Assembly (NCBI RefSeq): GCF_000830885.1
Contig: NZ_CP006951.1
Coordinates: forward strand, 992,001 to 1,056,000
Reading direction: 5' to 3'
DNA length: 64,000 nucleotides
Source of the DNA: Dehalococcoides mccartyi CG5
Lineage (GTDB): Bacteria; Chloroflexota; Dehalococcoidia; Dehalococcoidales; Dehalococcoidaceae
Shown here: in pieces, positions 28,047 through 39,093 of the stretch
Layout: each line of letters opens with the position of its first letter
How positions within the stretch are numbered: the first letter of the stretch is position 1
Position numbers and translations under genes: made by a program
The notes under the pieces: generated by a model
Told to the model about the DNA's origin: nothing
Seen by the model: the letters and a program-made list of their open reading frames with translations, nothing else
The model's database searches: none

Positions 28047-28121
28047 CGCGGGGTGGAGCAGTGGTAGCTCGTCGGGCTCATAACCCGAAGGCCATAGGTT
28101 CGAATCCTATCCCCGCTACCA
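28047..28121 (+). tRNA. initiator tRNA-fMet (anticodon CAT)
   Basis: Complete cloverleaf with encoded CCA. The anticodon arm TCGGG-CTCATAA-CCCGA has the three consecutive G:C pairs that mark bacterial initiators, and position 1:72 is a C-T mismatch rather than a base pair, the other initiator hallmark. It therefore starts translation and does not read internal AUG. Confidence 0.96.
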
Positions 28122-35308: not shown

Positions 35309-35337
35309 TTGCGTTTTAATATATTCTAATGTATAAT
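35309..35337 (+). promoter_or_regulatory. rplU promoter
   Basis: TTGCGT (35309-35314), 17 bases, TATAAT (35332-35337), so RNA starts near 35344. The in-frame ATG at 35329 lies upstream of this start, inside the promoter. A second, weaker TTGACA lies near 35249. Confidence 0.75.
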
Positions 35338-35364
35338 ATTGCTTTGCTTTTGGGAGGTGTCAAC

Positions 35365-35748
35365 ATTTACGCCATAATTGAATCCGGTGGAAAACAATAC
35401 AAGGTAACGCCCGGTCAGCTGGTTGAAGTAGATTTACTTGATCTGGCTGAGGGTGACAGCATTGAACTGGACAAGGTTCTGATGCTTAATGACGGTGAGA
35501 CCGTTACTATAGGTTCCCCCACTATTTCGGGTGCCAAGGTAACAGCCACTGTTGCCGGCCATATCAAGGGTGACAAGGTCTTTGCTTACCGCTTCAAGGC
35601 CAAAACCCGTAACCACAAGAAAATGGGCCATCGCCAGCTGTACACTGTACTAACGATAGGAGAAATTCTGACCGGCGGGGCTGCCGAAAAGCCTGCCCGC
35701 AAGCCCAGAGCCAAGAAAACAAACGAGGTAACTACAGATGGCGCATAA
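35365..35748 (+). CDS. rplU: 50S ribosomal protein L21, predicted ATT start
   Basis: Large-subunit protein. From ATT at 35365 the product is 127 residues: (M)[13 protein letters not shown], exactly the family start, then the L21 core with [11 protein letters not shown], and an extra basic tail of about 25 residues ([10 protein letters not shown]). GGAGG (35353-35357) is 7 bases before the ATT. No ATG, GTG or TTG is available in frame between the ribosome site and the first conserved residue. The only upstream ATG overlaps the promoter. Overlaps rpmA by 11 bases. Confidence 0.9.
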
Positions 35749-35992
35749 AAAAGGTGCGGGTTCTACAAAGAACGGACGTGATAGCAAGCCCAAAATGCTG
35801 GGTGTTAAACGTTTTGCCGGTGAAAAAGTGAACTCCGGGACTATTATTGTCCGCCAGAGGGGCACTCATATTCACCCCGGTGAAAATGTGGGGCTGGGAC
35901 GTGACTATACCATCTTTGCCACTTGCGAAGGTGTGGTAAAGTTTGAGCCTACCACTAATGACAGGAGGAAAGTCAGCGTAGTTGCTGACTAA
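35738..35992 (+). CDS. rpmA: 50S ribosomal protein L27
   Basis: An 84-residue L27 that contributes near the peptidyl transferase centre. It starts [19 protein letters not shown] with no N-terminal cleavage extension of the Firmicutes kind, and ends in a standard core ([17 protein letters not shown]). The gene overlaps rplU by 11 bases, the usual rplU-rpmA pairing. Confidence 0.97.
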
Positions 35993-38110: not shown

Positions 38111-38824
38111 CTAGGACAGATCTTCAAATGCCCGCTTAAGATTCAGGTCACCGGTGTATATGGCCTTGCCCACAATAGCGCCTTCTGCACCTATATCTTT
38201 GAGAAGACGTAAGTGGCTCAGGCTGGAAACACCACCGGAGGCTATAACCGGTACATTGATAGCTGAAATAAGGTCACGTATAGCCGCAAAATTAGGTTCG
38301 CTTAGGGTGCCGTCACGGCTAATATCGGTATAAATAAAACGCCTGATACCCAGTTTTTTCATACTTCGGGCTAGTTCCAAAGCATCTATTTCTGTATTGG
38401 TGACCCAACCCCGGGTTGCCACTTTGCCGTTCCTTGCGTCTATACTTACGGCTACCGAATCAGCATATCTGGCACATATTTCTTTAACCAGTTCAGGGTT
38501 TTCCACTGCCGCCGTACCCAGTATTACCCGGTCAACCCCGGCTACAAGCAGTTTCTTTACCGTCTCCATACTGCGGATACCGCCGCCCACTTCCACCGGT
38601 ATAAGAGCGGAGTTGGCTATTTCTTTTATAAGCTCAAAGTTTACGCTTTGTCCATCAGCAGCACCATCTAAATCCACCACGTGCAGGCGGGGAGCACCCA
38701 GCGACTGCCAGCGCATGGCTGTACCCACCGGATCAGACGAATACACTGTCTCCTGAGCATAATCACCTTGAAAAAGGCGAACACACCTTCCGCCTAAAAT
38801 ATCTATTGCCGGAATTATCTCTAT
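38111..38824 (-). CDS. hisA: phosphoribosylformimino-AICAR-P isomerase (HisA), predicted ATA start
   Basis: Fourth step of histidine synthesis; a half-barrel-duplicated TIM barrel with catalytic Asp8-type residue in EIIPAIDILGG and the second Asp in FIYTDISRDGT. If translation begins at ATA 38824 the protein has 237 residues and the canonical (M)EIIPAID start. AGAGAGGTG (38838-38830) is placed correctly for it. No ATG, GTG or TTG exists in frame near it. A frame extended upstream would run into the DUF2769 gene. Confidence 0.9.
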   Translation of the reverse strand: MEIIPAIDILGGRCVRLFQGDYAQETVYSSDPVGTAMRWQSLGAPRLHVVDLDGAADGQSVNFELIKEIANSALIPVEVGGGIRSMETVKKLLVAGVDRVILGTAAVENPELVKEICARYADSVAVSIDARNGKVATRGWVTNTEIDALELARSMKKLGIRRFIYTDISRDGTLSEPNFAAIRDLISAINVPVIASGGVSSLSHLRLLKDIGAEGAIVGKAIYTGDLNLKRAFEDLS

Positions 38825-38850
38825 TTTGACACCTCTCTTGAAAATGCCGC

Positions 38851-39093
38851 TTAAATACGGGATAACGGTGCCGCCCCGCTGGCACAATAATATGTTTCCG
38901 CAAAACGGTTCAGCTTCCATACCCGGCACTTGGGGCAAAGGCAGCTTATCTTTTTAACCATATACGGGCTTTTAGCCCGCTCACAGTAGACCATCTTGTC
39001 TTTATGTCCCGGGTAACTGGGACATTTTTTACACCGGCAGAGATTACTGTTAAACCCCAGTATCAGTTTTTTAACCGGATTATTATTATCCAT
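38851..39093 (-). CDS. DUF2769-like Cys-rich protein
   Basis: An 80-residue protein dominated by cysteines: CRCKKCPSY near the start, then Cys residues in YCERA and CLCPKCRVW. This pattern fits the DUF2769 family of small metal- or cluster-binding proteins in anaerobes. GGGGGCTTGGC precedes the ATG. It lies 26 bases ahead of hisA on the same strand and may be co-transcribed. Function unknown. Confidence 0.82.
   Translation of the reverse strand: MDNNNPVKKLILGFNSNLCRCKKCPSYPGHKDKMVYCERAKSPYMVKKISCLCPKCRVWKLNRFAETYYCASGAAPLSRI

Follow-up and report, generated by a model that had tools for sequence, protein, structure and literature searches.

The hisA locus

The window analysed here is a stretch of 64,000 nucleotides from the 1.36 Mb single-contig genome of Dehalococcoides mccartyi CG5 (G000), and it contains hisA and its upstream neighbour on the minus strand, arranged as follows.

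38111..38824, minus strand: hisA coding sequence of 237 codons with start codon ATA; homologues align from residue 1 in most genomes of the order
38822..38824, minus strand: hisA start codon ATA; the aligned codon is ATA or ATC in most of the order, and the substitution pattern shifts at this codon
38830..38838, minus strand: hisA Shine-Dalgarno sequence AGAGAGGTG, 5 nt to the 5' side of the ATA and kept in both congeners (G001 and G002)
38851..39093, minus strand: DUF2769 gene upstream of hisA (PF10967, E 1.3e-10), in another frame and ending 26 nt short of the hisA start codon

The minus strand reads AGAGAGGTG-TCAAA-ATA-GAG-ATA-ATT, in which a GAGGTG is followed by five bases, a normal Shine-Dalgarno spacing, and then by the ATA of hisA; the gene ends with a TAG stop codon (38113-38111, minus). 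The product belongs to the HisA family by a full-length match to PF00977 (His_biosynth, E 3.5e-86), with residues 2-227 corresponding to profile positions 1-227 of 228. The original prediction was of a hisA gene with ATA in place of Met, a 237-residue product and a correctly placed Shine-Dalgarno sequence, and the window sequence and the profile match bear out each of these. It had also noted that there is no nearby in-frame ATG, GTG or TTG, and the closest canonical codon is indeed a TTG at codon -21, followed by ATG at -32, GTG at -35 and TTG at -38, though the frame stays open as far as a stop at -44. Other strains had been proposed as a check, with ATG a conceivable outcome, and the hisA start codon in both congeners is ATA; a sequencing error at this position is therefore very unlikely.

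The reading frame upstream of ATA

The open frame to the 5' side of the ATA runs inside the DUF2769 gene, as had been pointed out, and the question is whether HisA could initiate at the ordinary ATG at -32 or TTG at -21 within that gene and so carry an N-terminal extension. The frame is open for 44 codons in Dehalococcoides and all three congeners have the ATG at -32, such that the window genome alone does not force the hisA start, a point that counts against initiation at ATA. However, the TTG at -21 is missing from both congeners, and it is the ATA rather than the upstream codons that is preceded by a strong Shine-Dalgarno sequence. Comparison of G000 with G002 over the 237 codons beginning with the ATA identifies 72 synonymous and 15 nonsynonymous codon differences, and third positions hold 79 of the 97 base differences. 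When the hisA frame is extended upstream, codons -32 to -1 have three synonymous and five nonsynonymous differences with no third-position bias (5, 2 and 3 base differences by codon position), whereas the bias is evident when the DUF2769 region is read in its own frame (17 codons differ synonymously and 12 nonsynonymously, and third positions account for 21 of the 34 differences). Because the substitution pattern changes at the ATA, the coding pattern of hisA begins at or very near this codon. The upstream codons evolve in the DUF2769 frame, in accord with the earlier view that an extension is unlikely, and upstream initiation is furthermore impossible in 19 of the 31 hisA loci of the order that are described below. 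The substitution pattern and these forced loci both disfavour the extension, and we consider it very improbable.

hisA start codons in the Dehalococcoidales and their relatives

A HisA search of 41 genomes gave matches at threshold in 39, paralogues included. Thirty loci of the order from this search, together with one named Dehalococcoidia metagenome locus (L031), make up a set of 31 that leaves out three HisA-like matches without a locus, two of which have internal stops. At the aligned start, 17 of the 31 have ATA, 11 have ATC and three have ATG. In 19 of the 31 the frame from its upstream stop to the start has no ATG, GTG or TTG, and all 19 have an AUH codon (AUA, AUC or AUU), so that a non-canonical start is forced at these loci. 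A second set (L247-L276), which overlaps the first, contains 11 ATG, 11 ATA and eight ATC starts, and the non-canonical start is forced in 12 of its 30 loci.

A broader pattern scan found hisA in 105 of 156 genomes of the order, with ATA in 57, ATC in 26, ATT in one and ATG in 21, and the start is thus AUH in 84 of the 105; the pattern demands a start codon that begins with AT and an N-terminus of the usual kind, and does not cover GTG or TTG starts, and many of the 51 unmatched genomes are incomplete. By family, 24 of the 32 with matches have AUH starts only, seven have ATG only, and one has both. The 21 genomes with ATG show that the weak hisA start is not indispensable, a point against the reading favoured below. 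In the remainder of the class, 61 of the 64 best-scoring hisA loci of those found have a canonical codon near the aligned start, one has CTG with an ATG eight codons upstream, and two (L137 and L416) have ATC with no canonical codon; the latter are both of the sampled genes of family f39.

The hisA gene shares the features that mark infC as an AUH gene, with an AUH codon aligned to the initiator Met of its relatives, conservation of this codon across species, and a strong Shine-Dalgarno sequence at normal spacing. A leader free of usable canonical starts is present in the 19 forced loci, and in G000 the same conclusion is reached only through the substitution pattern. Conservation across the order, the forced loci and the substitution pattern all agree with the original assignment of the HisA start to the ATA.

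When AUH and canonical labels are placed on a tree of 70 HisA proteins they need five changes, compared with a mean of about 24 when labels are shuffled (none of 500 shuffles is as low), and ATA versus ATC needs at least six, although these are rough counts from a quick tree with many poorly supported inner branches. It appears from these patterns that AUA and AUC swap in hisA, while AUG, a single transition from AUA, would have been regained only a few times. The mean Shine-Dalgarno match is 5.03 for AUH hisA genes (n=31), compared with 3.91 for ATG hisA genes in the order (n=11) and 3.95 for ATG or GTG hisA genes in the class (n=20); the p value of ~7e-5 assumes independence and these sequences are related.

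The rplU start and the shared 10-mer

A second gene in the window, rplU, has a comparable start and lies on the plus strand immediately before rpmA.

35352..35359, plus strand: rplU Shine-Dalgarno sequence GGGAGGTG, 5 nt before the ATT
35365..35748, plus strand: rplU (bL21), start codon ATT; ATT in 30 of 30 loci of the order
35738..35992, plus strand: rpmA, start codon ATG; the matched control, directly downstream of rplU

One genome of the order outside the 30-locus set (G268) has ATG at the rplU start. Among 27 loci of the class the codon is ATT in 20, ATC in four, and ATA, ATG and GTA in one each (the GTA with an ATG one codon upstream), giving an AUH start in 25 of 27, and in a scan of 301 genomes of the phylum (71 with a match) every match outside the class has ATG. 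The adjoining rpmA starts with ATG or GTG in all 56 loci found (57 searched). We also note a TTG five codons upstream of rplU in Dehalococcoides that is missing from most relatives, and, by eye, a TTGCGT and a TATAAT separated by a 17-base spacer (35309-35337, plus) just to the 5' side of rplU, implying a very short 5' leader.

It had been observed previously that the hisA ATA and the rplU ATT are preceded by identical sequence, and the 10-mer GAGGTGTCAA does occur exactly twice in the window, at these two places and nowhere else, with a chance expectation of 0.12. A search before ATT or ATA starts had been proposed, and another 400 kb of this genome contains three copies, none of which precedes such a start; moreover, the 10-mer is lost outside the genus. 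As a signal it is rejected, being neither kept outside the genus nor specific to AUH starts, and as far as these comparisons go its presence at both hisA and rplU is a within-genus coincidence. The suggestion of a rare-start rule common to the two genes holds in the form of a strong Shine-Dalgarno sequence combined with an AUH codon, and fails in the form of an identical 10-mer.

Other genes with non-canonical starts

We scanned for odd starts at three levels. The single-genome scan covered 464 kb of G000 with 410 ORFs accepted as genes, with incomplete detection, and gave ten rows of which infC and rplU were the strongest; a porG-like gene and hflX were taken further, and the others were by eye ordinary or were left. 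It missed hisA because the frame upstream of that gene is open. The same-genus scan flagged 50 of 297 genes, almost all of which have, by eye, an ATG, GTG or TTG a few codons further in; what remained was infC, purD and hflX, and a few rows with shifted alignments were set aside. The order-level scan (G000 against G003 and G026) flagged 26 of 212 genes, most with a canonical start a few codons on by eye, and left infC, purD, rplU in G026, the porG-like gene, and a ruvB-like gene in G026.

The infC gene (G000 C1:562167, minus; L149/L212) starts with ATA, as do 28 of 30 loci of the order by aligned position. In purD (L155:36-1310, plus; G000 C1:680036) the start codon in 30 loci of the order is CTG in 20, ATG in five, TTG in four and ATC in one, and a non-canonical start is forced in 20 of the 30. 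In 17 of 30 loci of the order the stretch before the conserved block of hflX (L148:8049-9245, plus; G000 C1:548049) lacks a canonical codon, and an AUC or AUU lies right after a GGAGG Shine-Dalgarno sequence in the loci inspected by eye; hflX seems to start with ATC or ATT, the exact position being less certain. From their sequences, infC (AUA), purD (CUG) and hflX (AUC or AUU) appear to behave like hisA and rplU, while the neighbouring rpmA does not. The porG-like gene, which encodes a POR domain (PF01558; L147:17709, plus; G000 C1:537709), has an ATA nine bases after a GGAGG, with ATC in G003, and is a candidate AUH start, though in G000 there is an ATG two codons further on. The ruvB-like gene at G026:C1:792788 has an ATA after AAGGAGG in G026 and an ATG in G000.

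Initiation machinery

The window also encodes an initiator tRNA, the features of which were judged against the rules for Escherichia coli.

28047..28121, plus strand: initiator tRNA-fMet (CAU), with an anticodon stem containing three G-C pairs and no pairing between positions 1 and 72, by eye

A complete and ordinary-looking IF3 is encoded elsewhere in the source genome, and we saw nothing unusual in either the tRNA of the window or the IF3 of the genome. In G026, a single contig that is ~95% complete, there is no match to the IF3 C-domain, and a stretch of N is present that may correspond to a gap. A search for structured RNA near hisA and rplU gave only one Rfam match, far under the cut-off (E 0.33).

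Interpretation of the hisA start

We propose with good confidence that translation of HisA begins at a non-canonical AUH codon, AUA in this genome, where fMet-tRNA initiates despite a mismatch that is rescued by the Shine-Dalgarno sequence and where output would be low and IF3-sensitive. The codon, its conservation, the forced loci and the stronger Shine-Dalgarno sequences are observed, and from these we infer fMet as the first residue, and attenuation and IF3 sensitivity as consequences. The ordinary initiator fMet-tRNA (CAU) would pair with the AU of the codon with its third-base mismatch tolerated, the strong Shine-Dalgarno sequence five bases to the 5' side would keep the 30S subunit positioned, and the HisA N-terminus would be (f)Met-Glu-Ile-Ile-Pro-Ala-Ile-Asp. 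IF3 is known to discriminate against AUH codons, and the E. coli infC gene is autoregulated through its AUU start. By disfavouring AUH, IF3 may similarly keep HisA low and responsive to the balance between free IF3 and ribosomes.

The hisA gene resembles E. coli infC, where AUU, AUA or AUC is likewise used with a strong Shine-Dalgarno sequence under IF3 autoregulation, but HisA is a metabolic enzyme with no known feedback on initiation. In E. coli pcnB an AUU start holds a single gene low, whereas for hisA it is conservation across the order and codon interchange that have been measured. PMC13009471, in which IF3 modulation and autoregulation are mentioned, describes AUA and AUU starts with extended Shine-Dalgarno sequences in Staphylococcus aureus infC, ccpN (AUA) and cvfC1 (AUU), with reporters giving ~10-30% of the AUG output; ccpN and cvfC1 are similarly conserved AUH genes outside infC. 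Other genes and another phylum are involved there, and the evidence in that case is from ribosome profiling and reporters, as opposed to comparative genomics alone for hisA. Because the anatomy of hisA is the same as in these staphylococcal cases, initiation at the AUA by fMet-tRNA is very likely, and an attenuated, IF3-sensitive output is likely, if less strongly so. The rplU gene encodes a ribosomal protein needed in quantity, and this is a poor fit to an AUH codon simply meaning low output.

If the start is weak, it may nonetheless be so without regulatory meaning, having drifted neutrally under relaxed selection on initiation in slow growers. The interchange of AUA and AUC with its six or more changes, the presence of ATG hisA in eight of the 32 families, and the CUG and AUH starts of unrelated genes are all compatible with this. 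Drift sits poorly, however, with 24 of 32 families having AUH only when AUG is one transition from AUA, with an rpmA that stays ATG or GTG next to rplU, and with the same few genes being affected rather than random ones; we regard it as a lesser but appreciable possibility. A further explanation is that the initiation machinery of the lineage is altered and AUH has become a generally good start codon, given that conserved AUH or CUG starts are present in five or more gene families within roughly a third of the genome. This is quite unlikely, as the comparison of 212 G000 genes with G003 and G026 finds an ATG, GTG or TTG at the conserved N-terminus of nearly all, and the initiator tRNA and IF3 look ordinary. 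We prefer the reading of hisA as a long-kept AUH start that is probably deliberately weak.

Implications

The hisA start is a real and deeply conserved non-AUG start, of a type already known from conserved AUH genes such as infC, and several housekeeping genes in these genomes are alike. We found no report of AUH starts for hisA or rplU among the open-access papers searched. Such starts are very rare, and just one switch to AUU is recorded among 61,358 reconstructed ancestral AUG starts (PMC5622118); yet several housekeeping genes keep AUH or CUG in most members of the order, and rplU does so in most of the class members sampled. In this group, gene finders that are limited to ATG, GTG and TTG will give these proteins a wrong start or cut them short. 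A more speculative and, in our view, doubtful extension is that infC, rplU, hisA, hflX, purD and perhaps others form a start-codon regulon in the Dehalococcoidia, with IF3, through its level or its activity, tuning the set in a coordinated way. If so, IF3 would co-tune ribosome assembly, ribosome rescue, and purine and histidine synthesis, through starts conserved across the order and, for rplU, across much of the class. The lineage allows one to ask whether weak starts serve regulation outside infC.
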